Part shown: piece by piece, positions 29,778 through 46,817 of the stretch
Layout of the letters: each line of letters begins with the position of its first letter
How positions within the stretch are numbered: position 1 is the first letter of the stretch
From: an uncultured Psychroserpens sp.
GTDB lineage: Bacteria > Bacteroidota > Bacteroidia > Flavobacteriales > Flavobacteriaceae
Assembly (NCBI GenBank): GCA_905479815.1
Contig: CAJQOA010000021.1
Span: 1 to 47,520, forward strand
Reading direction: 5' to 3'
DNA: 47,520 bases
Position numbers and translations under genes: made by a program
The notes under the pieces: model-generated
What the model was told of the DNA's origin: nothing
The model's database searches: none
Seen by the model: only the letters and a program-made list of their open reading frames with translations

Positions 29778-30779
29778 CTATCCTGGCTCTTTCTCAGAAC
29801 CACTTTCAATTTTAAGCAAACCTTTAAACGCATCATTAACTGTATTACCTTCATATAAAACTTTGTATACTTCTCTAGATATTGGCATATCGACCTCATA
29901 ATCATTAGCCAATTCCATAACTGCTTTTGCTGTTTTAACACCTTCAGCAACTTCATTCATCTCTTCAATAATTTGTTCTAAGCTTTTTCCTTGCCCTAAT
30001 TGGAAACCAACATGATGATTTCTACTTTTAGAACTTGAGCATGTCGCGACTAAATCCCCCATTCCTGCAAGGCCAGAAAACGTTCTACGACGTCCTCCCA
30101 TAGCAGTTCCTAATCTAGTTAACTCAGATAAACCTCTCGTTATTAAAGCTGCTCTAGTATTGTCTCCTGCATTAGCACCATCTCCCATTCCTGTGGCAAT
30201 TGCCATAATATTTTTTAGTGCACCACCAAGTTCACAACCTATAACATCATTATTAGTATAAACTCTAAACAATCCAGTACTAAACACTTTTTGTAATTGT
30301 TTTGCAATAGTTTTATCTACCATAGCAATTACTGCTGCTGCAGCTTGACCAGAATGAATTTCTTTAGCTAGATTTGGACCTGTTAACACTCCTGCTGGAT
30401 GACCCGGCAATTCTTCTTCAATAATTTGCGTCATACGCATTTTAGTATGTAGCTCTAAACCTTTAGACAAACTAACTATTGGCACCCAAGGCCTAATATG
30501 TGGTTTTGCTGCACGAAGTACTTCTCTAAAGTTCTGAGAAGGGATTCCAACTACAATTACATCTGCATTCCTAACAGTGTCTTCAATAGAACTCGAAGCT
30601 TTAAGATTCTTGTTTAATTTGGCCCCTGGTAGATATTTAGAATTTGTATGTTCTTCATTTATTTCTTTAACAGCTTTTTCATTTCTAGCCCACAAAATAG
30701 TGTCATTATTTTTTGCTGTTAAAGATGCAACGGTTGTTCCCCAAGATCCACCACCTAATATTCCAACGTTTAGTTTCAT
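29778..30779 (-). CDS. gpsA: NAD(P)-dependent glycerol-3-phosphate dehydrogenase
   Basis: The 333-residue protein matches GpsA in length and motifs: an N-terminal Rossmann fold (NVGILGGGSWGTTVAS), VVGIPSQNFREVL, VSLSKGLE, LTGPNLAKE, ELGGALKNIMAIATGMGDG with the catalytic-lysine region, and FSGLAGMGDLVATCSS. It reduces dihydroxyacetone phosphate to sn-glycerol-3-phosphate, the backbone for phospholipids and triacylglycerol. The gene follows the GPAT-HAD-LPLAT fusion gene by 94 bp in the same direction, so the enzyme that makes glycerol-3-phosphate sits beside the enzyme that acylates it. The gap holds the third copy of the 92-bp repeat, whose hairpin covers the gpsA start codon. An essential phospholipid role would be expected regardless of storage lipid. 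Confidence 0.96.
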   Translation of the reverse strand: MKLNVGILGGGSWGTTVASLTAKNNDTILWARNEKAVKEINEEHTNSKYLPGAKLNKNLKASSSIEDTVRNADVIVVGIPSQNFREVLRAAKPHIRPWVPIVSLSKGLELHTKMRMTQIIEEELPGHPAGVLTGPNLAKEIHSGQAAAAVIAMVDKTIAKQLQKVFSTGLFRVYTNNDVIGCELGGALKNIMAIATGMGDGANAGDNTRAALITRGLSELTRLGTAMGGRRRTFSGLAGMGDLVATCSSSKSRNHHVGFQLGQGKSLEQIIEEMNEVAEGVKTAKAVMELANDYEVDMPISREVYKVLYEGNTVNDAFKGLLKIESGSEKEPG

Positions 30780-30865
30780 GTGCTCAATTTTATTGTTTTT
30801 TAATAGTCACATGTAATATCCATATAATCATTTTCTAGACTTTTGAAAATTTGATTATGGATGTT
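30776..30865 (-). repeat. Diverged 90-bp copy 3 of the repeat, upstream of gpsA
   Basis: The copy shares the AATGATTA block, the CATGTG...CACATG hairpin arms (6 bp) and the A-rich loop ending at the start codon ATGAAAC. The unit ends at the gpsA ATG just as copy 1 ends at the esterase ATG. The rest has diverged strongly. Confidence 0.55.
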
Positions 30866-30873
30866 TCATGCGT

Positions 30874-33800
30874 TTAATTTTCTAGTTCATTAAGATATAA
30901 ATTTCGAACGTCTTCAATATGTTTATTGATGTTTTTTAATTTCCAAAGCGAAGTATCTACAGGGTCTAAAACCACAACCTCAATATGTGTTGGTTTAAAC
31001 ATACTTGAACCTTTAGGCATTGCCATGTATGCATTTTTGATAACAATTGGAATTATTGGAACTCCTGCTTGCATTGCTAAATGAAAAGCACCTTTTTTAA
31101 ATGTTCCTAATGTTTTACTACCACTTCTAGTACCTTCTGGAGCAATAGCGACAGAAACTCCATTCTTTAAAGCTTCAACCGCAGGTTGCATGGCTTCTAT
31201 AGCTTTTTCTTTATTTGCACGATCAACATAAATAGCTCCTAAAGCACTGAAAATTGGTCCAAATGGTGTACGTTCTAACTCCTTTTTAGCAATACCAGTA
31301 AAATCGTGTCGAATTAATTTCATAACAATAAAGAAATCGGCTGCACTTTGATGATTAAAACAAAAAACTGCGGGTCGTATTTCTTCTAAATTATGTTTTC
31401 CTTTTACTGCTATCTCTAAACCTGCCATTTTAGATCCTAAATCTCCAATACTTGAAAATGTAGCATTTGCAGCTTCTTGCCTAGACAAAGTCATTGCTCC
31501 TTTTAGCAAACCTTTTACTGCGGAAGGATAAATACTTGCCGCTGCTAATCCAGTTCTAAACCCATTAATTAAAGGTTTTTCAATAGGCTCTTCAAATCTT
31601 AATATTGGCCAATTATTCTCAAAAGCGACTTGAGATAATTTCTGATCTGGATTTATAGCTACAGGATTTCCAACAATTTTTAATAACGGAAAATCCTCAA
31701 TGCTATCGGTATAAAAATAACTTTTTGATAAATCAGTTTTATTCTTTTTGGCAAATTTTCGAGCAGCTCTTGCTTTACCTTCTCCCCAACACATCTCAGA
31801 AACACGTCCTGTGAATTTATTATTACGTACTTCCATTTCTGTAGCATACACATCCTTTATGCCTAATGCTTTTGCAATTGGCTCTATTTGATAGGTTGTC
31901 GCTGCCGAAATAATAACCACCTTATGACCTTTAGCTAAGTGCTTTTCAATAAGATCTCGAGATTCTTGATAAATTGTATCTTCTAGATACTCAGTAAAAA
32001 CTTGTTCACCTAACTCTACAAATACAGATTCATTAATACCTTTTACTCCTAAAGCTGCGACTTTAGTTAGTACTTCAAAATCTCTGTTTCCTGATGCAAA
32101 AAATAAAGCTGTCACAAATTGTGTCAAATATTCTTTAGCAGTTGTTTTTCCACTAAACAAACGTGTTGTCATGAATTTTTTAGCTGAAAAATCATTGATT
32201 AACGTTTTATCCATATCAAAAAATGCTGTGATATGTGGTCCCTCTTCTATAACTATTTCATGATTTACCTCGTCATTACCTGAATCTGGAACAACGCCTT
32301 CTTCTGTAGGCTCATCTTTAAGTCCTTTTTTCTCTAGAACAGATTCAATTTGTTTAAGATAAAATAGTCGTTCAGATAAATCTTCTAATTGATTTCCCCA
32401 GTGGTTTAATCCTTCAAAATCCAATGTTCTATCTATAGGAATCAAATTAGCGTTTTTAGCAAAACGAAGTGCATTTACTAAAAAAGGTTTAGACACACTA
32501 TCCAAACGTGTAATATTAGATTGCCAATGCAACTCCTTTCCTTTAAACATCGCTAAATCGATAAATTCATTATCTGAAAACTCATCATCAGTATCCCATG
32601 AATTTAACGTGTGACAAACCACTTTATCTGCCTCTAAATAAGACAATAAAATAGCTCTAGACACAAATAAATCTTGTTTTTTCAATAAGGACGACACATC
32701 CCCTTTTGGGTCTGATAAGATAGCTCTCCAATTTTTATCAAATCGCAATAATTCTGCTTCAATTTCACTACTAAATTTAGGCTTATTAGTATAAAAGAAT
32801 TCAAACTTAAATAAGTTTCGAAGTTCCATGATTTCTGCCCAAAAATTAGTAATTCGGTTAGCAGATACATCATCTTTAATTTTCACCAAAGCCATTTCAA
32901 TAAATGCTTGATGGTACAAATGACCTGATGCCATATTAGCATAATACGTGGCTGGTAAATATTCCGTAGACACCAAACTATATTGCGCTCGTTGTCCGGC
33001 TCTACTTTTTTGAACTATCCTTGCGCCTTGCAATAAGTTTAAAGCTTTTTGAATGGTAACACCAATCTTATTACCGCGATCTATTAAAACGTCCTCCTTT
33101 TTTTGACCAATATAGGTCATCAAACGATTGACCTTAAATTCAATTTCTTTTTTAGTTAATGCAAAATCATTCAATAACACATGACAAATTAATGACACTG
33201 TTGTTACTGGTGTAATGGCATTTGTTTTATGAATGAGTTCAAAAGCAAATCGTGGTAAGGTATTCTTATCTGCATAACTATCCTCTTCCATATCTGGAAT
33301 GATAGCTTGTTGATCTTCATCATCCTCTACAGGGTCTCCAAATCTAATGGCTGCACGACCATAATCGCTTCCTAATTTTTTAATATAACTAACAGCTTCT
33401 TTTACGTTTTCAGACTTTTTTACCTGCCCTTTACCTTCTTCTGTCATTTCTTTGACATCAGGAATTAAATCATAAACAATAGAAACTGGCACATATTTTA
33501 TAGGTCTTGAACTTTGTAGTTCACCTTCTTTAATATATTTCAAAATTCCCATTTTTGGGTATATGATTTTACCTGTTCTAGAACGTGTACCTTCAATATT
33601 CCAAGTTAAATGATCACCTTTATCTATAATTGCAGATATATAATGTCTCAATGCTGCTTTATAAATTAAATCATCTTTAAAGCTGCGACGAATAAAAATT
33701 AAACCGGCATTATTCCCTAATTGTTTCATGCCAGGAAACGCCAAATTACTACCTCCAAAAGAATAAGGAATTGGCATACCATAACGCGCTAAAGTTGAGA

Positions 33801-34104
33801 TAAGCACTAAAGTGTCTAAGTAAGTTTTATGCGTCATGATAAACGCTACAGAATTTCTCTGCATGAGTTTCATGAGTTTTTTAATACCTTTTGGATCGAC
33901 ATCAATTTTATCATTATAGGCTCTTGATAATATATAATCAAAACCTTTTACTGATATTAATTTTGCCATTGGATGCTGCTGAGCATACAACTCTTTAATA
34001 CAATTTGCGCCTTGTTTTTTTACTTCAGCAAGATCCATATCTTGCTCTTCTGCAATTTGCTTTAAAGTTTCTTGAAATTTATGATGCTCAATAATATGAT
34101 CCAT
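30874..34104 (-). CDS. Fusion of GPAT (PlsB-like), HAD-IB phosphatase and LPLAT (PlsC-like)
   Basis: The 1076-residue protein joins three enzymes. Residues 1-300 are a PlsB-like glycerol-3-phosphate acyltransferase: HX4D motif His92-Asp97 (THKTYLDTL), FIRRSF (137-142) and EGTRSRTGK (171-179). A helical region (300-600) resembles the PlsB C-terminal part. Residues about 624-840 are a HAD-IB (phosphoserine-phosphatase-like) hydrolase: FFDMDKTL with Asp630/Asp632, IISAAT, and YTDSIEDFPLL with Asp800/Asp804. Residues about 880-1076 are a PlsC-type acyltransferase: His918-Asp923 (NHQSAAD), VDRANKEKA and APEGTRSGSK (988-997). All key residues are present. Known mycobacterial PlsC-like proteins carry HAD plus LPLAT; a fused GPAT as well is notable. 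Together the parts could convert glycerol-3-phosphate to phosphatidate, and to diacylglycerol if the HAD domain acts on phosphatidate, which is unproven. The gene lies 6 bp after a hydrolase gene and before gpsA. Confidence 0.9.
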   Translation of the reverse strand: MDHIIEHHKFQETLKQIAEEQDMDLAEVKKQGANCIKELYAQQHPMAKLISVKGFDYILSRAYNDKIDVDPKGIKKLMKLMQRNSVAFIMTHKTYLDTLVLISTLARYGMPIPYSFGGSNLAFPGMKQLGNNAGLIFIRRSFKDDLIYKAALRHYISAIIDKGDHLTWNIEGTRSRTGKIIYPKMGILKYIKEGELQSSRPIKYVPVSIVYDLIPDVKEMTEEGKGQVKKSENVKEAVSYIKKLGSDYGRAAIRFGDPVEDDEDQQAIIPDMEEDSYADKNTLPRFAFELIHKTNAITPVTTVSLICHVLLNDFALTKKEIEFKVNRLMTYIGQKKEDVLIDRGNKIGVTIQKALNLLQGARIVQKSRAGQRAQYSLVSTEYLPATYYANMASGHLYHQAFIEMALVKIKDDVSANRITNFWAEIMELRNLFKFEFFYTNKPKFSSEIEAELLRFDKNWRAILSDPKGDVSSLLKKQDLFVSRAILLSYLEADKVVCHTLNSWDTDDEFSDNEFIDLAMFKGKELHWQSNITRLDSVSKPFLVNALRFAKNANLIPIDRTLDFEGLNHWGNQLEDLSERLFYLKQIESVLEKKGLKDEPTEEGVVPDSGNDEVNHEIVIEEGPHITAFFDMDKTLINDFSAKKFMTTRLFSGKTTAKEYLTQFVTALFFASGNRDFEVLTKVAALGVKGINESVFVELGEQVFTEYLEDTIYQESRDLIEKHLAKGHKVVIISAATTYQIEPIAKALGIKDVYATEMEVRNNKFTGRVSEMCWGEGKARAARKFAKKNKTDLSKSYFYTDSIEDFPLLKIVGNPVAINPDQKLSQVAFENNWPILRFEEPIEKPLINGFRTGLAAASIYPSAVKGLLKGAMTLSRQEAANATFSSIGDLGSKMAGLEIAVKGKHNLEEIRPAVFCFNHQSAADFFIVMKLIRHDFTGIAKKELERTPFGPIFSALGAIYVDRANKEKAIEAMQPAVEALKNGVSVAIAPEGTRSGSKTLGTFKKGAFHLAMQAGVPIIPIVIKNAYMAMPKGSSMFKPTHIEVVVLDPVDTSLWKLKNINKHIEDVRNLYLNELEN

Positions 34105-34110
34105 AACTTA

Positions 34111-35292
34111 CTATTTTGCGACTTGCACAATTGATTTTTTAGATTTGAATGCTTTTCTAGCTTTATTCCAAAAATTAGGGTATAAAACACGTTCAAAATT
34201 AGAACCAACATCTCTAATTTTTTTACCTTGAATATTAGCACTTAACATATTAGCAGTAACTAATAGTACACTTGCATTAGCACCCATTCCTGAATGACTA
34301 CCGTATACTTCAATGTTTTTTATATCTTTTCTAAAGGTTTCTGCTTCTATACAATGTTTCCATGGTACTAAACCATCTAGCTTAGTATAAATACAAGTTA
34401 CTGGAACTGTTGGTACGGGCTCTAATTCTGCTAAAAACCGTTCATTTCTCTCTTTTAGAGATTTCCCTCTAAAAAATTCCATTAACCCATATACTGGTGT
34501 TTTCATATCCATAACTCCCCAAATTGGGGATCCAATCGTTAAAATTTGCTCTACTTGATTCGGGTGTCTGTTCGCCATTATTTTGGCAAAAATACCACCA
34601 CCACTCCAACCAACGATGCTAACTTTCTCTTGATGTTCTTGATATATATCTGCTAACTTTTCTTCTAATCTTGGAATATAGTGTGATTTTACCATATTAA
34701 AACCCAACTCCCATTTGTAGGTTTTAAAACCTAAAGAGGTTAAATATTTCCTTACAAAGGAAGTAGATGTATCATCACCTAAATATGGTGGAATTAACAA
34801 CACTGGGCGTCCATTTCCTTTGATACGTTTAGGTATAAACGGATATAGACAATAAATAGATGTCCATTCTAATAAAGATCGACTCTCCATTACCATGTTA
34901 AATAATGGTGGTGAAGGTATTTTTTTATTGACTAAAGAGATTTCTTTTTCAAATCTATCTATGAGTGCATTGGTATACTTATATTCATTTTGGTCATGAC
35001 CATCAGAAATAGAGCTTCCAATGTTTTTCAGGATTTTAATTAAGGTAATATAATCTCTATTTGGACCTAATTCATCACAAACCAAGATGGTCTCGTCTAA
35101 TAATTGTTCGATACTATTACTTTCATCTTTGTCAATTTTATTGATGATAACTTTTACTTCATCTTTACTAGCATGATCCTTAAACTGAAGACTAGTCAAT
35201 TTTCTAGCATCCTTTAATGACATACCATTTAAAACACCTAAAGCAGTTCCAAAACGTGCGAATATTCTATATAAAATTTGGGATTCTTCCAT
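34111..35292 (-). CDS. Alpha/beta hydrolase (lipase/esterase-like)
   Basis: The 393-residue protein has no signal peptide. The N-terminal ~150 residues are helical and unrecognised. The hydrolase core begins at PVLLIPPYLGDD. The nucleophile elbow is GWSGGG with Ser230, the acid candidate is Asp306 in YTKLDGLVPW, and the His candidate is His333 in GSHSGMG. It keeps the complete triad and is plausibly an intracellular lipase or esterase. It lies between the monoacylglycerol-lipase-like gene (9 bp gap) and the GPAT-HAD-LPLAT gene (6 bp gap), so a role in acylglycerol turnover is likely, though polyester depolymerase or thioesterase activity is also conceivable. Confidence 0.8.
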   Translation of the reverse strand: MEESQILYRIFARFGTALGVLNGMSLKDARKLTSLQFKDHASKDEVKVIINKIDKDESNSIEQLLDETILVCDELGPNRDYITLIKILKNIGSSISDGHDQNEYKYTNALIDRFEKEISLVNKKIPSPPLFNMVMESRSLLEWTSIYCLYPFIPKRIKGNGRPVLLIPPYLGDDTSTSFVRKYLTSLGFKTYKWELGFNMVKSHYIPRLEEKLADIYQEHQEKVSIVGWSGGGIFAKIMANRHPNQVEQILTIGSPIWGVMDMKTPVYGLMEFFRGKSLKERNERFLAELEPVPTVPVTCIYTKLDGLVPWKHCIEAETFRKDIKNIEVYGSHSGMGANASVLLVTANMLSANIQGKKIRDVGSNFERVLYPNFWNKARKAFKSKKSIVQVAK

Positions 35293-35301
35293 TATTGTTT
35301 T

Positions 35302-36237
35302 TTAATCTTGTATGCGTGCATTTAACCAATCGAGTATTTCCTTCTGTACTGCTTCTGCATTAGTTTCATTTAACATTTCGTGTCGTCCTCCTTCATATAA
35401 ATTAAAAGTAAAATCACTCATACCTCTTTGTTTATATTGAGTAGCAACTCTTTTGACGCCTTTCCCCATTTCACCAACTGGATCTTTATCTCCTGAAAAC
35501 ATTAGTATTGGTAAATCTATAGGTGTCGCTTTAAAAGCCTCTACTTTATTCAATGTTTTAGAGTTCTTGATAACATCTAGAAATACACCTAAAGAGAAAT
35601 CTTCAACACGGTAAGGATCTTCAGCAAATAAATCTACTTGTTTTTCATCACTACTAATCCAATCTAATTTTGTTCTATTTGGCTTGAATTTCTTATTAAA
35701 TTCTCCAAAGAAGAAAGATTTCAAAAACTCATTCCCTCTTGCTCGACCTCTAAAAGCTGTTACTGTAGTTGCTGTAACTAAGCCAATATTACCTAGTCCT
35801 TTTATAAAACTTGCAGTTCCCGATAAGATTAATGCATCTAATTCCTTGCCATATTTTGTAACATATTTTCTGCTAAGGAGCGACCCCATACTATGTCCAA
35901 ATAATATGAATTTAGATTGAGGATGTTCTGTTTTCATTAAGCTAGAAAGCACATACATATCTTCTACACAATCTTCAAAATATTCTTTTCCGTCATAAAA
36001 TCCAAATAGACGTTTCATTTCCGCAGTTTTACCATGAGCGCGATGATCATTAGCATAAACCGCATATCCTTGGTCTTGTAAAAGATGTGCAATATGATCA
36101 TATCTACCAGCATGCTCTCCTAGTCCGTGAGCTATTTGCACTACACCTTTAAAAGGTGCTTTTGGGTTAGCTTCCCATTTATAATAACAAATGGATTCTC
36201 CATCTGTAGATTTTAATATACCTGTATTGTAATGCAT
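35302..36237 (-). CDS. Monoacylglycerol-lipase-like alpha/beta hydrolase (Hydrolase_4)
   Basis: The 311-residue cytoplasmic protein follows the monoglyceride lipase pattern closely: oxyanion segment AHGLGEHAGRYDHIA, the GYAVYANDHRAHGKT block, nucleophile Ser116 in FGHSMGS, Asp252 in FSGDKDPVGE and His286 in YEGGRHEMLNE. Family members release fatty acids from monoacylglycerol or lysophospholipid. It starts 3 bp after the WS/DGAT gene, so it is co-translated with the enzyme predicted to make neutral lipid. That suggests it either mobilises the store or recycles by-products. Exact substrate is inferred. Confidence 0.88.
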   Translation of the reverse strand: MHYNTGILKSTDGESICYYKWEANPKAPFKGVVQIAHGLGEHAGRYDHIAHLLQDQGYAVYANDHRAHGKTAEMKRLFGFYDGKEYFEDCVEDMYVLSSLMKTEHPQSKFILFGHSMGSLLSRKYVTKYGKELDALILSGTASFIKGLGNIGLVTATTVTAFRGRARGNEFLKSFFFGEFNKKFKPNRTKLDWISSDEKQVDLFAEDPYRVEDFSLGVFLDVIKNSKTLNKVEAFKATPIDLPILMFSGDKDPVGEMGKGVKRVATQYKQRGMSDFTFNLYEGGRHEMLNETNAEAVQKEILDWLNARIQD

Positions 36238-36240: not shown

Positions 36241-38082
36241 TTATCGTTCTAAAAAAGCAGTGAGTAACTTCGTGAATTTAGTCTTACTTGCTGCTGTTCC
36301 TGTTATTTTGATTCGACCTTGAATTTTTAGCTCTTCTAAAAGTAAATTACCTTTATACAAAGCATATAAATTCTCATCTTCAATTTCAATCAAGACTTTA
36401 GGTTCCAAATTTTTCTTTTTCTTAACCACAGCTGTTGCTTTAGTAAGATCAATTTCATAGCCTTCTGTTATATCTCCTAGATCTAACTGAATATTATAAA
36501 CACCTTTATGAGCTTTAACTGCTTTAGGATTGTCTTTTAAGTATTTTCTTAACGCTGTAAAAAAGGGTGTGCTTTTAATTTTTGTTTGTTTCGTTTTTTT
36601 AACTGAAGACTTACCTTTACTGAGATCTTTAATTAAGACTTCTAGCTCATTTGCAGATTCTCTTATGTATTTTGAAAACACATCAGCATCTGGCATTGTT
36701 TTAGCATCTGAAGTCGTCGTAATACTCACTTGCCCATTATAACTAAAAGCAGCTATAATTAACCCAAAACCATCTACAACTGGAGTTAATCCAAATATTG
36801 AAACCACTTTATGTCCATTTAAATATAACAGACCTCTAGGACCTGGAACATTTGTTATTGTCACATTAAAAGGTGGTCTATGTAAGTCCTTCATGTTGTA
36901 CTTACTGTATAAGCCTGCAGCTAAATTCGCCAAACCAAAAGGCACAACATCTGCCATTTTAGCCAATGTTTTTGCACCCATTGTATTATGTCTCGATTTC
37001 CCTAACATCGTCTGTTCTTGAATATATTCTAAACGCTCTAATGGATCTTCTATATGAGTTGCTAATTGAATCATCATATTAGCAATCTGGTTATTCATTT
37101 CTTTACTATCGTCTGTTCTAATAGAAATTGGGACATTTGCTACTAAAGGATGTAAAGGCAGTTTTTCTTTTTCTACTAAATAACGACGAATAGCCCCTGC
37201 ACAAATAGCAAGAATAACATCATTAATACTACCTCCCATTATTTTTCTAAGCGCATTGATACGATCAAAAGATAAAATAGCAGTTCCCCATGTTCTTTTT
37301 GCTGAAATTTTACCGTTAAAAACTGTAATCGGAACAGGGAATTTCGTCGAACTAAATTCCTTTTGAATGCTCAATTTACTTGCAGCTTTACTTTTTACAA
37401 AATTGAAAACCGTTTCAGATACTGTCTTCGGAACTTTAAACGGATTCTTTAAAAAGCCATAGCTGCTTTTTAATAATAAGCTTAATTCGTCTGGTAACGG
37501 TTCTGGGTTAAATGGTTTTGGTTTAGAACGCTTTTTTTCTTTTCCGTTTTCATCACTATCATACAAAACACCTAACAAACCAACTCCAGAACTACCATCA
37601 ATCATCACATGATGAACTTTGGTTACAATGGCTACAGAGCCTTTTGGCACTTGAGCAATTTCATCAATCCCTTCAATAAAATGAACAGACCACAATGGTC
37701 TTCTCAAATCTAAAGGAGAACTAAATAATGATGACGTTAGCGTTCTTAATGTTTTCCAGTTTGAAGGATCTGGTAATTTAATACGGTTTAAATGTAAGTC
37801 TAAATCAAAATTTGGATCATCAACCCAATATGGATAATCCAAGTTCATTGGCACGTTTAGTAATCGTTGTCTAAACTTTGGAATCAAATGCAATTTGGAT
37901 GCAATAATTGCTTTAAAGTCTTCAAATTTTAATGATCCTTCTACAATGTTCAATGTTGCTATGTGCATTGGACTTGTTGGAGATTCTGCATATAAAAACG
38001 CAGCATCAGAGCCAGAAATTTGTTGGATTGAAGTATCAAATGCATCCTGCATGATATCCTTCAAATCAATTTTTTTTGCCAT
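36241..38082 (-). CDS. WS/DGAT-family acyltransferase with C-terminal SCP2-like domain
   Basis: The 613-residue protein is a wax ester synthase/diacylglycerol acyltransferase. It opens with the family's SGSDAAFLYAESPTSPMH. The active-site motif HHxxxDG is intact (His157, His158, Asp162, Gly163 in VHHVMIDGSSG). GSINDVILA (Asn287-Asp288) and ITNVPGPRGLLY are also canonical. Usual family length is about 450-500. The extra ~110 residues (about 505-613) look like an SCP2 sterol/lipid-carrier domain: VYNIQLDLGD, then VLIEIEDENLYALYKGNL and GRIKITGTAASKTKFTKLL. The enzyme would esterify diacylglycerol or fatty alcohol with acyl-CoA at the membrane. It leads an operon with two lipases, the GPAT-HAD-LPLAT fusion and gpsA. 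An 18-bp palindrome lies about 130 bp upstream. Triacylglycerol versus wax ester cannot be told from sequence; no fatty acyl reductase is in the window, which favours triacylglycerol. Confidence 0.9.
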   Translation of the reverse strand: MAKKIDLKDIMQDAFDTSIQQISGSDAAFLYAESPTSPMHIATLNIVEGSLKFEDFKAIIASKLHLIPKFRQRLLNVPMNLDYPYWVDDPNFDLDLHLNRIKLPDPSNWKTLRTLTSSLFSSPLDLRRPLWSVHFIEGIDEIAQVPKGSVAIVTKVHHVMIDGSSGVGLLGVLYDSDENGKEKKRSKPKPFNPEPLPDELSLLLKSSYGFLKNPFKVPKTVSETVFNFVKSKAASKLSIQKEFSSTKFPVPITVFNGKISAKRTWGTAILSFDRINALRKIMGGSINDVILAICAGAIRRYLVEKEKLPLHPLVANVPISIRTDDSKEMNNQIANMMIQLATHIEDPLERLEYIQEQTMLGKSRHNTMGAKTLAKMADVVPFGLANLAAGLYSKYNMKDLHRPPFNVTITNVPGPRGLLYLNGHKVVSIFGLTPVVDGFGLIIAAFSYNGQVSITTTSDAKTMPDADVFSKYIRESANELEVLIKDLSKGKSSVKKTKQTKIKSTPFFTALRKYLKDNPKAVKAHKGVYNIQLDLGDITEGYEIDLTKATAVVKKKKNLEPKVLIEIEDENLYALYKGNLLLEELKIQGRIKITGTAASKTKFTKLLTAFLER

Positions 38083-40262: not shown

Positions 40263-40300
40263 ACAAAAAAAACCAAGCTACACATAATATGTAACTTGGC
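40263..40300 (-). terminator. Rho-independent terminator after the phasin-like pair
   Basis: Hairpin 40273-40299 has CCAAG/CTTGG at the base and pairs on through TACA/TGTA with one G-U. On the minus strand it is followed by an 8-T run. It ends the 41541-40339 transcript before tetR. Confidence 0.8.
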
Positions 40301-40338
40301 TTTTACTATCCAATCAATCCTAAACGAATACTTATAAC

Positions 40339-40629
40339 CTAAGCGATAAGTTTAGTAAATCTTTTTTTACTTAAGATGATATGTTTTTTCATACCTGTTA
40401 AGGCATCAAAAACGATATCTTGCTGTGTTGCTGCTAATGATAAACCACCTTTTAAAGCTTTGTTACCAACAGTTTGCCATTGTTCTGCAACAACGATTCC
40501 TTCTGTTACTATATCTTCAGTTGTATGAAGTGCGTAACCATTTGCAGTTATTACTACTTTTTTTGTCTTCTTTAGAGCTTTAAACACCATTTTCTTTGGC
40601 GCGTCTAATATTGATTTTTTATTACTCAT
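40339..40629 (-). CDS. Small phasin-like protein
   Basis: The 96-residue protein is basic, helical, and has no signal or membrane segment. It is not a match I can name with certainty. It shares a motif with two neighbours: the stretch WQTVGNKALKGGLSL, then QQDIVFDALTGMKK, aligns without gaps to WQKLASKLIKKSEKV, then QINMIFDTAEAVKG of the 295-residue protein. It also aligns to the end of the 87-residue protein (NQELVFDTLNTVKG), and the segment ANGYALHTTEDIV matches ANELALNTTEKVA there. Length, amphipathic helices and context suggest a granule or lipid-droplet surface protein of phasin type. It begins 24 bp after the 295-residue gene and ends at a strong terminator. Confidence 0.65.
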   Translation of the reverse strand: MSNKKSILDAPKKMVFKALKKTKKVVITANGYALHTTEDIVTEGIVVAEQWQTVGNKALKGGLSLAATQQDIVFDALTGMKKHIILSKKRFTKLIA

Positions 40630-40653
40630 TACGTTGTATTATAAGTTAAATAA

Positions 40654-41541
40654 TTACTTCTTCACTTCTGTCTTTACTTCTGCAACTTTAGCTGTTGCTA
40701 CTTTCTTAACCTCAGCTACTTTTGCTACAGTTTCTTTTTTAACAGGTGCTACTTTTTTAACTACTGGTGTTACTTTTTTTGCTACTGGTGCTTTTGCTTT
40801 AGCAACAACCTTAGTTGCTTTAGCTTTTGTTGTAGTTGATTTTTTTGCAACAGTTTTCTTTGGCGCTGCTTTTGAAACAACTTTAGTCGCTTTAGTCTTA
40901 GTTGCTGTTGCTTTTTTAGTTACAGCTTTAGTTGCTTTAGCTTTTTTTGCTACAGTTTTCTTTGCTGTCACTTTCTTTGCTACAGGTTTCTTAGATACTT
41001 TAGCCTTTGGTGTAGACTTAGCATCTTCAATAATAGCTTCACCTTTATCAATAATCTTTGAAGCTTGCTCTAATACATCTCCTTTTAATTCATTGTATTT
41101 TGCAATTCCCATGTTTTTTAAATCTTCAGTAGCTTTTTCTGCTTTCTGAATCATTGGGTTTTCAGTTACTTTTTCAGTAATATCTTCTACAATTTCAACT
41201 ACTTTTTTACTTACTGGGTGATTGATAGCCATGTTCTTAGCTTTTTCAACTAATTCAGCATCGTAACCAACTAAATCTTTCATTTTATCAGTTCCACTTA
41301 CAAACTGTCCTTTAACAGCTTCTGCAGTATCAAAAATCATATTGATTTGTTGCTCTCTTACTTTCTCAGACTTCTTAATTAATTTAGAAGCCAGTTTTTG
41401 CCATTTCCCACCGTTATCTATAGTCGTATTAATTGCTGCGATTGAAGCATTAATCAAACTTGCATTTACTTTTTTTGCTACACTAGGTTTATTTCCTTTT
41501 TTAGTTGCTTTTTTTGTTGCTTTTTTTGTTTTAGTTGCCAT
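40654..41541 (-). CDS. Phasin-like protein with long Lys/Ala-rich histone-like tail (PhaF-like)
   Basis: The 295-residue protein has three parts. Residues 1-25 are Lys-rich (ATKTKKATKKATKKGNK). Residues about 26-178 are amphipathic helix with the shared Q-x-x-x-[VI]-FD motif (QINMIFDTAEAVKG, 65-78). Residues about 179-295 are a low-complexity tail of Lys, Ala, Thr and Val in K-K-x-x-A-K style repeats. This layout is that of PhaF, the Pseudomonas phasin whose histone-H1-like tail ties storage granules to the nucleoid; Rhodococcus MLDS is an analogous lipid-droplet protein. I infer a droplet-coat protein that can bind DNA. A pure nucleoid protein is the alternative. It has its own promoter, nearly the same as that of the 87-residue paralogue. 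Confidence 0.72.
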   Translation of the reverse strand: MATKTKKATKKATKKGNKPSVAKKVNASLINASIAAINTTIDNGGKWQKLASKLIKKSEKVREQQINMIFDTAEAVKGQFVSGTDKMKDLVGYDAELVEKAKNMAINHPVSKKVVEIVEDITEKVTENPMIQKAEKATEDLKNMGIAKYNELKGDVLEQASKIIDKGEAIIEDAKSTPKAKVSKKPVAKKVTAKKTVAKKAKATKAVTKKATATKTKATKVVSKAAPKKTVAKKSTTTKAKATKVVAKAKAPVAKKVTPVVKKVAPVKKETVAKVAEVKKVATAKVAEVKTEVKK

Positions 41542-41644: not shown

Positions 41645-41908
41645 TTATTTGAATTTTGGTATAAACTTAGCAGCCTTTCCTTTTACTGTATTTAATGTAT
41701 CAAATACAAGCTCTTGATTTTTTGCTGAAGCTTTAATACCCTTTTTTAAAACCTTAGCAGAAAGACCTAAACCTTTTTCAGACAAACTAATTGTCTTCAT
41801 CGCTACTTTTTCGGTTGTGTTTAAAGCTAATTCATTTGCCTTAGTTACTAATCCTAATGCCTTATCAGCAGTTGTGTCGATAATTGTTGTGTGCTTTTTA
41901 GTTGCCAT
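41645..41908 (-). CDS. Small phasin-like protein, paralogue of the 96- and 295-residue proteins
   Basis: The 87-residue helical, basic protein starts MATKKHTTIIDTTADKALG, much like the MATKTKK start of the 295-residue protein. Its C-terminal half, KVLKKGIKASAKNQELVFD plus TLNTVKG, carries the family motif K-x2-K then Q-x-x-V-FD-T-x3-VKG. It looks like the coat-protein core without the DNA-binding-like tail. It is probably monocistronic, with a TACGTTTG -7 box. Function is inferred from paralogy and neighbourhood; no database family is claimed. Confidence 0.65.
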   Translation of the reverse strand: MATKKHTTIIDTTADKALGLVTKANELALNTTEKVAMKTISLSEKGLGLSAKVLKKGIKASAKNQELVFDTLNTVKGKAAKFIPKFK

Positions 41909-42076: not shown

Positions 42077-42880
42077 CTAGTGAAGGTTTTCTATCTCTTT
42101 AAGTAATTTTTTAGTGGCAGGAAGAGGATCAATACCATACTCCAAATCTAAGACATCTGCACATTTTTGATATGCTTTTATCGCTTGAGGGCGATTACCT
42201 TTAATAATATAAGCTTGCATTTGTAAACGATACGCGTCTTCCCATGTTTTATCTATTGCAATTGCACATTGCGCTAATCTGATACTTTCTAAAGGGTTTT
42301 CATTTAATAGAATTTCAGCAAGAATAACATAAGCTCCCAAAATAAGGATTTGAATTTTTTCTCGTTCTTCAGAAGACCAATCTTCAAAAACACGATTAGG
42401 TAAATATACGCCTTGATATAAAGCAATGGCAGCTTTATAAGCAGCTTTAGATACAACTGCATCTTCACCAAAGGCTTCGTTTCCTATTATGACATATTGC
42501 TCTAGAGCTTCAACATCTATCCAAATTTTCTCTAAATCTAGTTGGTAACTAACACCCTGTCGTATTACATAACTAGGTTCTGTTCTAGAAGGTCTCTCTG
42601 GCTCCAACACTTTATTCACACCATGCAAAGCAACTTTAAAATCACGATCATCTCCATCTTCCCATAGATGATCCATAATTTTTTCTTTATGAAGTGCGTG
42701 ACGTTGTCTATTAGAAATTAAATATTGTAATAGTTGAACGGTTTTATCTCTTCCCCATTGTTTAGAGTCAACTTTATCATTAGCGCGCCACAAATTAAAC
42801 TGCCCCAAGGTTTGAATACGAATAATCGCATCCTCTTGAAATTGTTTAAGTTCTTGTAGCTTGTCTTGAAGGTGACTCAT
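42077..42880 (-). CDS. BTAD-domain (SARP-like) transcriptional regulator
   Basis: The 267-residue protein has an N-terminal OmpR-like winged helix (about 17-105: IRIQTLGQFNLWRAND, KTVQLLQYLISNRQRHALHKEKIMDHLW in two pieces) followed by a bacterial transcriptional activator domain of TPR type (about 120-265: YLPNRVFEDWSSEERE, ESIRLAQCAIAIDKTWEDAY, AYQKCADVLDLEYGIDPLPA). This is the SARP/AfsR architecture without ATPase or sensor parts. Such regulators are common in Actinobacteria and uncommon in Flavobacteria, so transfer is possible. It follows the Lys-tailed 185-residue gene by 7 bp, and their promoter region carries the second CTATGC palindrome. It is a candidate controller of the storage genes. 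A weak hairpin near 42031-42047 with a short T-run may end the transcript. Confidence 0.82.
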   Translation of the reverse strand: MSHLQDKLQELKQFQEDAIIRIQTLGQFNLWRANDKVDSKQWGRDKTVQLLQYLISNRQRHALHKEKIMDHLWEDGDDRDFKVALHGVNKVLEPERPSRTEPSYVIRQGVSYQLDLEKIWIDVEALEQYVIIGNEAFGEDAVVSKAAYKAAIALYQGVYLPNRVFEDWSSEEREKIQILILGAYVILAEILLNENPLESIRLAQCAIAIDKTWEDAYRLQMQAYIIKGNRPQAIKAYQKCADVLDLEYGIDPLPATKKLLKEIENLH

Positions 42881-42887
42881 TTAAGAT

Positions 42888-43445
42888 TTACTTCTTTTTA
42901 GGTGTAGTCGCCTTTTTTGTTGTTTTTGGAGCTCGACTAGTTTTAACAGGCTTACTAATGGCATCAACTTTTGCATTTAGCTTTTTCATCTCATCTGCTA
43001 ATTGAGAAATAGAGTCTTTAATTGAATTAAAATCTGATCTTGATGCATTTCTCCATTGGTCTATTGGAACTTTATCCATTAAGTCCTCTCCAAAATCACT
43101 AATCTGATCCTGAAGATGAGCCACTTGTTTCCTTGGATCCTTAATAGTTTCCATGATTACTTTAGGACCTTCTTTAGCCATCGTTTTCCACAAAGAAAAA
43201 CTCTTTTTTAATAAAGAATCTTGCAACTCTGGTGATTTATCTTTAGTCGCTTCTATAGTTAAATCTGCTAGTCTCTCTTGAATAAATTTAACGGCATCAT
43301 TAAAATCTGAAAAACTTTGATCTTCACCTCCTTGCACATGCGATACTTTTCCGCGCCATTGCACTTTAGATTCACCATCTTCTTCAAAAATAATTTGATT
43401 AAATCGCACCATGAAAGATGCTGTTTGATCTGCTTTTTTAGCCAT
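42888..43445 (-). CDS. Putative granule-associated protein with Lys-rich tail, paired with the BTAD regulator
   Basis: The 185-residue protein has a short N-terminal domain (about 8-55: FMVRFNQIIFEEDGESKVQW, RGKVSHVQGGEDQSFSDF, DAVKFIQ), then a long amphipathic helical region (about 60-162) and a basic tail (SRAPKTTKKATTPKKK). The middle resembles phasins in length and heptad pattern (DSISQLADEMKKLNAKVDA is coiled-coil-like). It does not carry the QxxxFD motif of the three other small proteins. Its N-terminal pattern W-R-G-x-[IV]-x-H-V-x-x-G recurs in uncharacterised bacterial proteins as far as I recall. I infer a droplet or granule surface protein, with modest certainty. It is the first gene of the BTAD transcript, divergent from glpK. 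Confidence 0.65.
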   Translation of the reverse strand: MAKKADQTASFMVRFNQIIFEEDGESKVQWRGKVSHVQGGEDQSFSDFNDAVKFIQERLADLTIEATKDKSPELQDSLLKKSFSLWKTMAKEGPKVIMETIKDPRKQVAHLQDQISDFGEDLMDKVPIDQWRNASRSDFNSIKDSISQLADEMKKLNAKVDAISKPVKTSRAPKTTKKATTPKKK

Positions 43446-43540
43446 AATATAAAATTTACATCGCTTACAAATTACGATTCTTTTTTTGATAAACTAAATG
43501 AGTATTATATAAACCAATACTACAAAAATTAAAAATAGTT

Positions 43541-43558
43541 TCCTATGCAAGCATAGTA
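43541..43558. promoter_or_regulatory. Second copy of the CTATGC palindrome, between the BTAD operon and glpK
   Basis: TCCTATGCAAGCATAGTA matches the perfect palindrome at 38212-38229 at 16 of 18 positions and keeps the arms CTATGC/GCATAG. It lies in the 196-bp divergent region, about 96 bp from the Lys-tail gene start and 84 bp from glpK. A regulator bound here could act on both transcripts. Confidence 0.55.
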
Positions 43559-43641
43559 TTTTAAAATTATTTTCAGTTCTTTATACTTTAACTCTTTTAA
43601 GACAATCAATTACTCTGATCAATTTCAAAAAAAAGAAGACA

Positions 43642-45132
43642 ATGAATAAAAAGTTTATAATTGCATTTGATCAAGGTACGACAAGCACCAGAACTATCAT
43701 TTTTGATAACCAAGGTAATATTCAAGGTGTTTCACAAAAGGAACTAACACAATATTATCCAGAATCTGGTTGGGTAGAACATGATCCAAATCAAATTTAT
43801 AACGATCAAAAAGACACTTTTGAAACCGTTTTAAAAGATACAGGAATATCTCCTGAAGATATAGCTGCCATTGGTATTACAAATCAACGTGAAACGACTG
43901 TTGTATGGGACAAAGAAACAGGTGAACCAATTTATAATGCTATTGTATGGTTAGATAATCGTACCAAAGATATTTGCAATAAGCTGAAACATGATGGGCT
44001 AGAACCTTATGTTCGTGAGTATACAGGCTTAGTCATTGATTCCTATTTTTCGGGAACCAAATTAAAATGGATTTTAGATAATGTACCTGGAGCACGAGAA
44101 AAAGCTAAAGCCGGGAAACTTTTGTTTGGAACCATTGATAGTTGGTTGATTTATAAATTTACTAATGGAAAACAACATGTTACAGATCACACAAATGCAT
44201 CACGAACCATGCTTTATAATATTAAAGATTTAAAATGGGATGACACATTATTATCTGCCTTAGATATTCCAAAATCAATGCTTCCAGAAGTAAAAACTTC
44301 ATCTTCAGATTTTGGTTCGGTGACTTATAATAACATAAACATCCCTGTTTATGGTGTTGCTGGCGATCAGCAAGCTGCGCTGTTTGGCCAAGGAGGCTTA
44401 GTTGAAGGTATTGCAAAAAACACTTACGGGACAGGTTGCTTTTTACTTTTAAATAATGGTAAAGATTATGTCGCTTCTAAAAACGGATTAATTACAACTT
44501 TGGCTTGTAGTTTACCTGAACAACCCAAAAATTATGCTCTAGAGGGTAGCATTTTTATTGGCGGAGCATCTATTCAATGGTTAAGAGATAAAATGCAATT
44601 AATAAATGAAGCCAAAGAAACAGAACAAATTTGCAATGATATTCCTCCATTAAAAGATTTATATGTAGTACCTGCTTTTGCAGGTTTAGGAGCGCCATAT
44701 TGGGATGGAAACGCAAAAGGCGCCATTTATGGTATTACACTAGATATTGGAAAAAAAGAAATTATTAAAGCAACTGTTGAAGCTCTAGCTTATCAAACCA
44801 AGGATGTCATAAAAGCCATGGAAGAAGATAGTGGAAAACCAATTACAGTACTAAAGGTTGATGGTGGAGCAAGCTCGAATACTTACTTAATGCAATTTCA
44901 ATCAGATGTATTAAATGTCCCAGTTGACAGACCAAAAATAATCGAAATCACAGCTTTGGGAGCAGCAATGTTAGCAGGATTAAAAGCTGGAGTTTGGACA
45001 AAACAAGACATAGCATCTATTCGCGAAATTGATCAAATTTTCAAACCTGAAATGGACGTTAAAACTAGAACCGAAAAGTATTCAGGATGGTTAGACGTCA
45101 TTAGAAGAACTCAAACAATTAATAAAGCTTAG
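43642..45132 (+). CDS. glpK: Glycerol kinase
   Basis: The 496-residue protein is a standard FGGY kinase: phosphate-1 motif FDQGTTSTRTIIFD near the start, GWVEHDP, ITNQRETTVVWD, the substrate region IVWLDNRT, GVAGDQQAALFGQ, and the C-terminal KVDGGASSNTYLMQFQ with the ATP-site. It phosphorylates glycerol to sn-glycerol-3-phosphate. It is followed 8 bp later by glpD. No glpF facilitator is present in the window. Divergent placement from the BTAD operon, with a shared operator-like palindrome between them, links glycerol use with the storage genes. An A-rich stretch with AGAAGA precedes the ATG as ribosome-binding region. Confidence 0.96.
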   Translation: MNKKFIIAFDQGTTSTRTIIFDNQGNIQGVSQKELTQYYPESGWVEHDPNQIYNDQKDTFETVLKDTGISPEDIAAIGITNQRETTVVWDKETGEPIYNAIVWLDNRTKDICNKLKHDGLEPYVREYTGLVIDSYFSGTKLKWILDNVPGAREKAKAGKLLFGTIDSWLIYKFTNGKQHVTDHTNASRTMLYNIKDLKWDDTLLSALDIPKSMLPEVKTSSSDFGSVTYNNINIPVYGVAGDQQAALFGQGGLVEGIAKNTYGTGCFLLLNNGKDYVASKNGLITTLACSLPEQPKNYALEGSIFIGGASIQWLRDKMQLINEAKETEQICNDIPPLKDLYVVPAFAGLGAPYWDGNAKGAIYGITLDIGKKEIIKATVEALAYQTKDVIKAMEEDSGKPITVLKVDGGASSNTYLMQFQSDVLNVPVDRPKIIEITALGAAMLAGLKAGVWTKQDIASIREIDQIFKPEMDVKTRTEKYSGWLDVIRRTQTINKA

Positions 45133-45140
45133 TAAGATAA

Positions 45141-46817
45141 ATGAAAGCAAAACCTTTTTCTATACTGAATAGAGCTGAGCAGATTAAAACAGTCTCAGCA
45201 CAAAAATTTGATCTTGTCATCATTGGTGGTGGAGTAACTGGCGCAGGAATTGCCTTAGATGCAGCATCGCGTGGCATGAAAATATGCTTGATTGAAAAAA
45301 ATGATTTCGCCTCAGGAACTAGTAATAAATCTACAAAATTGATTCATGGTGGTTTACGCTATTTAAAACAATTAGAAATTGGTTTAGTAAGAGAATCTGG
45401 CAGAGAACGTGCTATTGTACACAAACTCGCACCACATTTAGTGATCCCAGAAAAAATGCTTTTACCACTTGTAGAAGGTGGTACCTACGGAAAAATGATG
45501 ACTTCTATTGGGTTAAAAGTTTATGATTTTTTGGCAAGTGTTGAAGGTGATGATCGCAGGAAAATGCTAGACAAAGAAGACACTTTAAAGAAGGAACCAC
45601 TATTGGATGCTAAAACAATTCTTGGTAGTGGTTATTATTCTGAATACAGAACAGATGATGCGCGATTAACTATAGAGTTACTTAAAAAAGCTTCAGAATT
45701 TGGAGCGCAAATTCTTAATTATTGTGAAATGGACACCTTCATTTATAATACAAGAGGGCAAATTAAAAGTGTTGATTGTATTGATCATAATTCTGGAGAA
45801 ACTATAAATATTACTTCTAGGAATTTTGTTTCTGCAACTGGACCATGGGTAGATATATTACGAGAGAAAAATGCTTCTAAAAGCAATAAATATTTACATC
45901 TCACTAAAGGTGTACACCTCGTTTTTCCTTTTGAAAAATTTCCTTTAAAACAATCGGTATATTTTGATGTTGCCGACGGTCGTATGATTTTTGCAATCCC
46001 AAGAGGACACGCAACTTATGTTGGTACAACTGATACAGACTATTTTGGTAACTTAGAACGAGTTGTTACCACTAAAACAGACATTAACTATTTACTTGAT
46101 GCTGTTAATGCTGCTTTTCCAAAAATTAATTTAAATGAAGATGATATAAAATCTAATTGGGCTGGTTTAAGACCATTAATTCATGAGGATAAAAAAGACC
46201 CTTCAGAATTATCAAGAAAAGATGAAATATTTATTTCTGATAGCGGATTAATCTCTATAGCTGGAGGAAAACTAACAGGCTATAGAAAAATGGCACACCG
46301 CGTCATTGATGCCGTTATAAAAACGATGACAAGTATACAAGCATCTAAATTAAAAGAATCATATACCGAAGACATTGCACTAACAACAAACCCAATGTCT
46401 TCTTCTAAAGGCGTTAGAGTTTATCAGAAAAAATTAGAATTAAAGCTAAATAAAATTGGGATTCAAGACGATTATTTTGCTTGGTATTTAACGTCTAATT
46501 ATGGAAAACAGGCAGATGTAATATTAAAACAAATGCAATCATTTTCAAATGAAAACGCAGAATTACGTCTTATTAGAGCTGAGCTTTGGTATGGGATTCA
46601 TTTTGAAATGATTAATAGTCTAGCCGATTTTTTTGTAAGAAGAACAGGTCGTTTATATTTTAATATTTCAAGTGTTTCTAAATATAAAAATGTGGTGATA
46701 AAGGATTGTGTCTTATACTTAAATTGGGACGAAATACGTATTAAAAAAGAAAAAGAAGTCTTAAAAACACTTGTAAAAGATGCTACTCATTTTTATGACA
46801 AAGAATTAAACTCATAA
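45141..46817 (+). CDS. glpD: FAD-dependent glycerol-3-phosphate dehydrogenase
   Basis: The 558-residue protein has the N-terminal FAD dinucleotide-binding motif (DLVIIGGGVTGAGIALDAAS, residues 25-44), then KSTKLIHGGLRYLKQ and the GlpD core (LLDAKTILGSGYYSEYRTDD, SATGPWVD, HLTKGVHLVFP, YVGTTDTDYFG, GLRPLI, SIAGGKLTGYRKMA). A C-terminal helical domain follows. It oxidises glycerol-3-phosphate to dihydroxyacetone phosphate at the inner membrane, feeding electrons to the quinone pool. It is co-transcribed with glpK. It runs opposite to gpsA, so the locus can route glycerol-3-phosphate either into lipid or into glycolysis. Confidence 0.96.
   Translation: MKAKPFSILNRAEQIKTVSAQKFDLVIIGGGVTGAGIALDAASRGMKICLIEKNDFASGTSNKSTKLIHGGLRYLKQLEIGLVRESGRERAIVHKLAPHLVIPEKMLLPLVEGGTYGKMMTSIGLKVYDFLASVEGDDRRKMLDKEDTLKKEPLLDAKTILGSGYYSEYRTDDARLTIELLKKASEFGAQILNYCEMDTFIYNTRGQIKSVDCIDHNSGETINITSRNFVSATGPWVDILREKNASKSNKYLHLTKGVHLVFPFEKFPLKQSVYFDVADGRMIFAIPRGHATYVGTTDTDYFGNLERVVTTKTDINYLLDAVNAAFPKINLNEDDIKSNWAGLRPLIHEDKKDPSELSRKDEIFISDSGLISIAGGKLTGYRKMAHRVIDAVIKTMTSIQASKLKESYTEDIALTTNPMSSSKGVRVYQKKLELKLNKIGIQDDYFAWYLTSNYGKQADVILKQMQSFSNENAELRLIRAELWYGIHFEMINSLADFFVRRTGRLYFNISSVSKYKNVVIKDCVLYLNWDEIRIKKEKEVLKTLVKDATHFYDKELNS

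Follow-up and report, generated by a model that had tools for sequence, protein, structure and literature searches.

The DNA analysed here, referred to as the window, is the entire 47,520-base contig CAJQOA010000021.1 (C21) of an assembly of an uncultured Psychroserpens sp. (GCA_905479815.1, Flavobacteriaceae). We propose that a gene cluster at positions 29778-46817 of the window is likely to be a self-contained neutral-lipid storage module, with triacylglycerol (TAG) as its most likely product. The cluster is a conserved module across flavobacteria. Its named lipid, coat and regulator genes all fall within these bounds, as judged from open reading frames and from Pfam and NCBIfam scans, in which the gpsA, glpK, glpD, ABC1, TetR and BTAD products all exceed their Pfam cut-offs. 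Twelve genes run on the minus strand from p185 to gpsA with intergenic gaps of 3-168 bp, and glpK and glpD are divergent (features given below are on the minus strand unless marked otherwise). The original prediction, made from the sequence of the window alone, had described this gene set and its operon spacing, and every gene it named was found where it had been placed. It had also read the genes as a locus that makes, coats, regulates and mobilises neutral lipid, which the linkage and co-occurrence reported below support, the droplets being presumed.

From the genes, their motifs, their same-strand layout, their linkage and their co-occurrence we infer the following enzymatic steps, product, coating, tethering and regulation. 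GpsA2 and GlpK would supply glycerol-3-phosphate, to which the acyltransferase domains of a fusion protein (GHL, defined below) would add two acyl chains, its HAD phosphatase domain stripping the phosphate to leave diacylglycerol. A wax ester synthase/diacylglycerol acyltransferase (WS/DGAT) would then attach the third chain to give TAG, with acyl-CoA or lipid probably presented to it by its SCP2 domain. The small proteins p87, p96 and p295 would coat the droplet through amphipathic helices, and the tail of p295, of histone-H1-like or helix-hairpin-helix type, would tie droplets to the nucleoid. Expression may be controlled by a BTAD-domain protein, paired with p185, and by a TetR-family regulator, with p185 as an inclusion-facing or sensing partner. 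Finally, the hydrolases H1 and H2 would release fatty acids, and GlpK and GlpD would recover glycerol.

Conservation and linkage of the cluster

Co-occurrence in other Bacteroidota, which the original prediction had named in advance as a check on itself, proved strongly positive, with core linkage at 37 of 37 loci in one sample and the same 11 of 397 genomes recovered in another; the loci of the first sample overlap with the carrier genomes of the second, and the two are not independent. In the genome sample, PF03007 was detected in 11 of 397 Flavobacteriaceae genomes and in 21 of 395 genomes across the phylum, the source genome being counted in both. Ten of the 11 flavobacterial genes read as open frames of 611-633 aa, and a contig end cuts the other. 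A p185 model matches these 11 genomes and no other of the 397, an outcome that would have a chance of about 1e-21 if the genomes were independent; they are not, and the carriers span 10 genera. A p96 model matches 7 of 264 Flavobacteriaceae genomes, all of them carriers, with three copies each and all at the cluster; four carriers (G322, G330, G381 and G384) are not among these listed matches, and the locus scan finds p96 in all four.

In eight of the 10 other carriers the order of all twelve genes, p185 through gpsA, is unchanged, and at locus L044 the order is kept as far as the contig reaches. At locus L039 (genome G129) the blocks are rearranged, the TetR and ABC1 genes are not in the stretch read, and three p96-family genes lie at or just past its edge.

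The locus sample comes from named genomes and rests on the best 80 of 126 relatives (50 flavobacterial, 30 other). Flavobacterial carriers in it include Lacinutrix, Arcticiflavibacter, Bizionia, Winogradskyella, Ulvibacter, Dokdonia, Patiriisocius, Croceivirga, Allomuricauda, Lutibacter, Polaribacter, Aquimarina, Oceanihabitans and others, and relatives were also found in Saprospiraceae, Lewinellaceae, Microscillaceae, Spirosomataceae, Chitinophagales and Lacihabitans. Linkage was counted, at a score floor of 60 bits, in loci flanked by 9 kb or more on each side (37 of the 50 flavobacterial and 13 of the 30 other Bacteroidota loci), whereas the locus map was drawn at a floor of 25 bits; one WS/DGAT, one glpK and one glpD row were left out by length. 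In these well-flanked flavobacterial loci p185, BTAD, GHL, H1, H2 and gpsA are each present in 37 of 37, p295 in 36, p96 in 33, TetR in 27, ABC1 in 22 and p87 in 21. The 13 well-flanked loci outside the flavobacteria have p185 with BTAD in 10, H1 in 8, GHL and p96 in 7 each, gpsA in 5, p295 in 4 and H2 in 1, and none of them has p87, TetR, ABC1, glpK or glpD. When all loci are taken, full or cut, p185 is found in 46 of 50 flavobacterial and 24 of 30 other loci, and of the 69 loci having both genes 67 show p185 and BTAD side by side on one strand. The p185-BTAD pair is the most constant companion of WS/DGAT-SCP2.

A WS/DGAT tree, which serves for placement among close relatives and makes no claim of monophyly, its outgroup rows being unreliable, puts the window protein in an 11-row group with Winogradskyella, Lacinutrix, Bizionia, Arcticiflavibacter and Oceanihabitans (support 99). 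Around the WS/DGATs of the phylum-wide sample no other cluster gene was seen in nine neighbourhoods (L192-L200) or in two (L188 and L190) of the family f33, which is considered below.

Lipid enzymes and the likely product

The first gene, gpsA2 (29778..30779; PF07479/PF01210), encodes a predicted NAD-dependent glycerol-3-phosphate dehydrogenase and is the second copy in the source genome, 32% identical to that on contig C262. A single gpsA, 30-31% identical to gpsA2, is present in each of eight same-genus genomes tested, and nine of the 10 other carriers hold a distant gpsA (29-31% identical) besides the cluster copy. It is predicted that gpsA2 is dedicated to the cluster and supplies it with glycerol-3-phosphate.

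Next to it lies the 1076-aa fusion GHL (30874..34104; PF19277, PF12710, PF01553), predicted to combine a glycerol-3-phosphate acyltransferase (GPAT), a HAD phosphatase and a lysophosphatidate acyltransferase (LPLAT) in one chain. The motifs HKTYLD, EGTRSR, FDMDKT, NHQSAAD and PEGTRS are present, and the protein scores above the cut-offs of TIGR01490 and TIGR00530. Its best NCBIfam match is PRK03355, a mycobacterial model, at 422.8 bits against a cut-off of 721, making this the nearest model and not a family of which GHL is a member.

Two lipase-like hydrolases had been predicted, and motifs are found in both. H2 (35302..36237) is a monoacylglycerol-lipase-like serine hydrolase (PF12146, 163 bits; GHSMG). 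H1 (34111..35292) is an alpha/beta hydrolase with a GWSGG nucleophile-type motif and a candidate intracellular lipase; no Pfam family is above cut-off for it, the sub-cut-off matches being alpha/beta-hydrolase-like only.

The WS/DGAT gene (36241..38082; TIGR02946, PF03007, PF06974, PF02036) had been correctly recognised in the original prediction, which overlooked the C-terminal SCP2 lipid-binding domain of its product (PF02036, 27.8 bits against a cut-off of 21.3). The protein matches TIGR02946 at 408.3 bits (cut-off 309.95) and PF03007 at 182.9 (23.6), and its active-site motif HHxxxDG reads HHVMIDG at residue 157 and occurs in 10 of 10 orthologues. By family model and motif it is a predicted wax ester synthase/diacylglycerol acyltransferase. 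The active-site motifs of GPAT, HAD, LPLAT, H1, H2 and GpsA are likewise each kept in 10 of 10 orthologues tested. As a side observation, H2 in L048 (11846-12777) and WS/DGAT in L100 (735-2593) are each split into two frames, either a broken gene or a sequencing error. Two further enzyme genes, on the plus strand, are a divergent glycerol kinase gene, glpK (43642..45132; PF00370/PF02782), and the glycerol-3-phosphate dehydrogenase gene glpD (45141..46817; PF01266/PF16901).

These assignments bear on the product. TIGR02946 covers wax ester and triacylglycerol synthases alike, and the main product could be a wax ester or a mixture of wax ester and TAG, the Kennedy-pathway genes serving membrane lipids too. 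We regard this as quite unlikely, for the cluster has a complete predicted path from dihydroxyacetone phosphate or glycerol to diacylglycerol with its own GpsA2, and its monoacylglycerol-lipase-like hydrolase suits glycerides; moreover, no predicted acyl-CoA reductase is found among the cluster genes, the rest of the genomes not having been searched for one. It is very unlikely that the cluster instead remodels membrane lipid, in which case its enzymes would form an alternative route to phospholipid, WS/DGAT would acylate an unusual acceptor and no storage inclusion would be made. GPAT and LPLAT do also lead to phosphatidate, and an FA-hydroxylase-family gene, cut by the contig end, lies beside glpD (46872-47501), but this gene has no homologue at 1e-10 among 90 other loci, and WS/DGAT-SCP2 is accompanied by two hydrolases and by inclusion-like proteins. 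We rejected the FA hydroxylase as a member of the cluster on that absence of homologues, and discounted a hidden Markov model match to it in L083, which came from a two-sequence model mixed with a 30%-identical protein.

The nearest precedent for the cluster is Rv2482c-Rv2485c of Mycobacterium tuberculosis, where a TAG synthase is found together with PlsC, a probable GPAT and, next to them, the putative carboxylesterase LipQ (PMC10699116). The Rhodococcus jostii operon atf9-plsB-plsC(AGPAT-HAD) similarly joins a WS/DGAT to a GPAT and a HAD-AGPAT fusion, and the HAD domain has been raised as a phosphatidate phosphatase for rhodococci also (PMC4850399). The window resembles both in linking WS/DGAT to GPAT and HAD-AGPAT functions, as far as these two sources describe them, but differs in having GPAT, HAD and LPLAT in one chain, SCP2 on the WS/DGAT, and added coat-like, tether-like and regulatory genes.

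The coat-like family

The original prediction had listed four small basic helical proteins of phasin style. Three of them, p96 (40339..40629), p295 (40654..41541) and p87 (41645..41908), do form one helical family, in which p87 and p96 are homologous to the N-terminal part of p295 by cross-hits and profile comparison (97.6% probability, E 4e-12), whereas p185 falls outside this family, is near-neutral and has a beta-rich N-domain in its model. None of these three has a family match in the Pfam and NCBIfam scans. The small protein p96, a helical coat-protein candidate, is recognised by its own family model; p87 is a short member that cross-hits with the p96 family; and p295 carries a p96-type helical domain followed by a Lys/Ala-rich, histone-H1-like tail, 125 aa with 41 K and 26 A in the window protein. 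A helix-hairpin-helix-type end pattern occurs in 29 of 53 relatives of p295, but not in the window's own p295. Of eight small proteins scanned, one matches HHH_5 above cut-off and three others do so below it. The AlphaFold2 model of p96 is a single long helix. Helix amphipathicity exceeds z 2 against shuffles in 49 of 50 p96-family members (50 of 60 rows used), with 3.3 for p87 and 2.4 for p295 of the window and averages of -0.1 to 1.5 for control proteins. The set A6 of this class holds 34 of 60 p96-class rows and two window proteins.

By sequence these proteins are phasin-like in analogy and not phasin members, so that the earlier description holds for the former sense only. The closest approaches to phasin models are one of 36 p96-family comparisons with PF09361 at E 0.072, below cut-off, and a relative of p295 in L067 with PF05597 at E 0.0071 (16.8 bits, cut-off 28.8). 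Among solved-structure sequences p96 has no relative at E 1.

The analogy is with PhaI and PhaF of Pseudomonas putida, which share an amphipathic helical N-domain and of which PhaF has a nucleoid-protein-type DNA-binding C-terminus (PMC3574117). The tail-less p87 and p96 and the tailed p295 appear to be arranged like PhaI and PhaF, but the window family matches no phasin model above cut-off, the 11 cluster genomes have no polyhydroxyalkanoate (PHA) synthase above cut-off, and some tails of the family are of helix-hairpin-helix type. By this analogy p295 is a candidate droplet-DNA tether that would bind both lipid and DNA. It would then resemble, in role and not through sequence comparison, MLDS of R. 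jostii, a droplet protein that binds DNA and is encoded in one operon with the regulator MLDSR (PMC5504291), in place of which the window has BTAD and TetR.

Alternatively, p87, p96, p295 and p185 could be histone-H1-like or HU-like nucleoid or stress proteins that travel with lipid genes and stay off droplets. The Lys/Ala-rich tails and the HHH_5 matches are consistent with this, as is the effect of the H1-like AlgP on polyphosphate granule spacing in Pseudomonas (PMC9239181). We nevertheless judge it improbable, as p185 and the p96 family co-occur with WS/DGAT, all four small proteins are linked, no DNA-binding feature was seen in the tail-less p87 and p96, and the p185 N-domain heads a PHA operon elsewhere.

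Two observations concern members of this family. Long p96-class proteins occur in L117 (11839-12567, Lacihabitans), L118 (6256-7083, Chitinophagales) and L095 (5834-6433, Saprospiraceae); they resemble apolipoprotein A1/A4/E at E 7e-6 and 2e-7, far below cut-off, with a Senescence domain match of E 0.004, also below cut-off, in the L095 protein, and are possibly longer droplet coat proteins. Opposite p295 in the window a 171-aa open frame (40634-41149, plus strand) is probably an antisense by-product of the Lys-rich tail and not a gene.

Regulators and the p185-BTAD pair

Between WS/DGAT and p96 lie genes for an ABC1/UbiB-family atypical kinase (38237..39547; PF03109, 191 bits) and a TetR-family regulator (39553..40203; PF17931, TetR_C_23, 128 bits). 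The kinase has HADPHPGN and DFG in 10 of 10 orthologues. At the place of KxGQ, a motif of the ABC1 family, the window has KLAQ, and K-x-A-Q is found in nine of 10 orthologues; in the tenth no K-x-x-Q was found there. A terminator-like hairpin of 17 pairs followed by a T run (40268..40304) lies between p96 and tetR, which suggests that the coat genes are on a separate transcript; it is a consensus match only, and such matching gives 14 terminator-like sites in the region against a mean of 8.0 in shuffles. TTG-N-TAnnTTTG, a flavobacterial promoter pattern, was not found in the intergenic gaps of the cluster.

The BTAD-domain (SARP-like) regulator (42077..42880; PF03704, 55.5 bits against 22.1), which has an N-terminal Trans_reg_C match below cut-off, is paired with p185 (42888..43445), a protein of a family of unknown function and an inclusion-associated candidate. 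In its model p185 has a beta-rich N-domain (residues 11-66, predicted local distance difference test (pLDDT) 71-79), the remainder, Lys tail included, being of low confidence. The helices after the N-domain are strongly amphipathic (z 5.4), and the protein is nearly charge-neutral (34 K+R, 29 D+E). No family was above cut-off for p185 in the Pfam scans. At a limit of E 1, PF05597 is matched by 15 of 55 family members (best 0.0026), with many coiled-coil matches besides, and among solved-structure sequences only coiled-coil chains were matched (best E 0.0023); a plasmid search with p185 gave no match. The set A5 holds 54 of 70 p185 relatives and the window protein.

No PHA synthase had been noted in the original prediction, and this holds more widely: none of the 11 cluster genomes has PF07167 above cut-off or reaches the cut-off of TIGR01836, which 3 of 3 positive controls reach. 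Four of the 11 give weak TIGR01836 matches that resemble alpha/beta-hydrolase elbows; the best (E 1.2e-4) is to the G129 copy of H1. We rejected PHA metabolism for the window cluster because no PHA synthase is above cut-off in the 11 carrier genomes.

Relatives of p185 nevertheless occur beside PHA genes elsewhere. Across 395 genomes of the phylum, strong matches to p185 beyond the source genome were found only in three genomes of the family f33 (E 6e-21 to 6e-19), with four further genomes weak (E 4e-4 to 8e-3). The f33 matches cover the N-terminal part, and the relation to the window protein is firm over residues 7-88 only (E 3e-20). In L187 (8971-15811) and L189 (8823-15720) a BTAD gene and the p185 relative head a run encoding a 130-132-aa protein, PhaE, class III PhaC, a PhaB-like reductase, an approximately 160-aa protein and a PhaA-like thiolase. 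In L187 PhaC reaches 490 bits with TIGR01836 (cut-off 365), and PhaE is above the cut-off of PF09712 (95 against 26) and below that of TIGR01834 (79 against 155), while the PhaB and PhaA models fit best yet stay below their cut-offs. For the 130-aa and 161-aa operon proteins no family is above cut-off, and the former has no detectable relation to p96. Class III PhaC is above cut-off in all three f33 genomes, and in the third, G559, some 2.2 kb separate it from the p185 relative. The f33 genomes also encode a divergent WS/DGAT of their own, located on other contigs, and no cluster gene lies beside it in the two neighbourhoods mentioned above. In f33 a class III PHA operon (phaE, phaC, phaB, phaA) is headed by a BTAD and a p185-like gene, whereas the window cluster has none of phaC, phaE, phaA and phaB.

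As the p185-BTAD pair heads the f33 PHA operon and also tracks WS/DGAT-SCP2, the same pair is linked to both. It is possible, though on balance doubtful, that Bacteroidota possess an inclusion kit independent of the stored polymer, in which p185-BTAD would serve PHA granules in f33 and TAG droplets in many other families. There it would act with a new PhaI/PhaF-like coat family, the long member of which would tether droplets to DNA by an H1-like tail or by a helix-hairpin-helix domain, and the pair would sense or organise the inclusion surface and switch the pathway to match.

Counter-evidence and the source contig

Several findings weigh against a module that makes and coats TAG droplets. WS/DGAT enzymes may make wax esters or use other acceptors. 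Genome G250, one of the 11 with the cluster, has the cluster gpsA alone, and without the usual distant gpsA this copy may serve the whole cell. The glpK and glpD genes, rightly placed in the locus by the original prediction, are neighbours in a minority of relatives, with glpD in 9 and glpK in 8 of the 37 well-flanked flavobacterial loci, at least one further glpK being hidden in L052 within a frame read together with glpD, and with the pair alongside the cluster in four of 10 other carriers. Three of the 13 well-flanked loci outside the flavobacteria (L105, L119 and L123) have neither p185 nor BTAD. No small protein of the cluster is above the cut-off of the phasin models PF05597 and PF09361. 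The p96 of the window is not clearly amphipathic (z 1.6, reached by 31 of 400 shuffles), and ordinary control segments reach z 3.5 (ABC1), 2.6 (GHL) and 2.3 (TetR). The AlphaFold2 models of p96 and p185 are of low confidence (pLDDT 58 and 61), and a fold search with p185 gave no solved fold at E 0.001 or better. Lastly, WS/DGAT is found in none of the 22 other genomes of the genus, from which it follows that the trait is dispensable or the contig doubtful.

The last point raises the question of whether the source contig is an assembly or binning artefact that joins a glucan locus of the genus to a foreign lipid cluster. Collinearity of the left part of the window with the same-genus genome G017, with few genes differing and 49-90% identity per protein, stops after an esterase gene (28680-29645), directly before gpsA2. 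The best long match to glpD in the 22 genus relatives is 37% identical. The assembly (3.31 Mb) is in 265 contigs, with 88.7% completeness and 3.94% contamination, and the right flank of the cluster is unanchored. In tetranucleotide composition the cluster comes closest to its counterparts in Arcticiflavibacter and Lacinutrix, a comparison that decides nothing because it is confounded by homology, which could explain it alone. Yet the sequence is continuous, with no N, across the junction before gpsA2, and the same cluster is present in the single-contig genome G212 and in other near-complete genomes. We consider an artefact unlikely, and the module itself is real whatever the source contig is. 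The collinearity and its break point to a left half native to the genus and to a cluster that is a present/absent segment, either gained here or lost by the other genus members.

Relation to earlier work and significance

Storage of this kind had been called unexpected in Flavobacteria, a view that has been partly overtaken by the prediction of Galvan et al., 2023 (PMC10351704). These authors reported WS/DGAT homologues in 3% of Bacteroidota genomes, including an SCP-2-fused form, with an AGPAT/hydrolase gene near the Bacteroidota WS/DGAT, and called accumulation in the phylum unexplored. The window protein has the same architecture and shares with theirs the length (613 +/- 15 aa), overlapping genera and the adjacent AGPAT/hydrolase gene, PF02036 being detected in two of four of their sequences. 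WS/DGAT-SCP2 in Bacteroidota is therefore already published, and storage is predicted there, no test of it having come to light in our searches; in the sections covered, their text makes no mention for Bacteroidota of p185, BTAD, p87/p96/p295, gpsA2 or the hydrolases. For Antarctic Flavobacteria a polyester-type infrared peak is mentioned (PMC10878007), so that storage in this group is not settled. In the titles and abstract openings of the open-licence literature we found no description of the coat-like family, p185-BTAD or the full module. What is apparently new is the fixed module, the dedicated GpsA, a PhaI/PhaF-like coat family with two DNA-type tails and the p185-BTAD link between oil and PHA.

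Flavobacteria and Saprospiraceae are better known for polysaccharide use. If our proposal of a TAG storage module is correct, neutral-lipid storage would be a conserved, self-contained trait of many of them, droplets of bacteria other than Actinobacteria would gain coat and tether candidates, and one organising module would be common to PHA granules and oil droplets. There would also be named genes with which to ask if algal sugar carbon is stored as oil. In the source genome the cluster is directly beside a glucan-type utilisation locus. The cluster is present in named isolates of Lacinutrix, Polaribacter, Winogradskyella, Ulvibacter, Dokdonia and Croceivirga, which makes the question directly testable.

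The neighbouring glucan locus

Positions 1-29645 of the window hold this glucan-type locus, with GH16, GH17, GH30, SusC and SusD genes and of putative laminarin type. It further contains a Glyco_hydro_2_C TIM-barrel match, an MFS transporter, a Y_Y_Y regulator and a 1170-aa protein that lacks a Pfam match at 1e-8 and recurs in 17 of the 22 other genomes of the genus.

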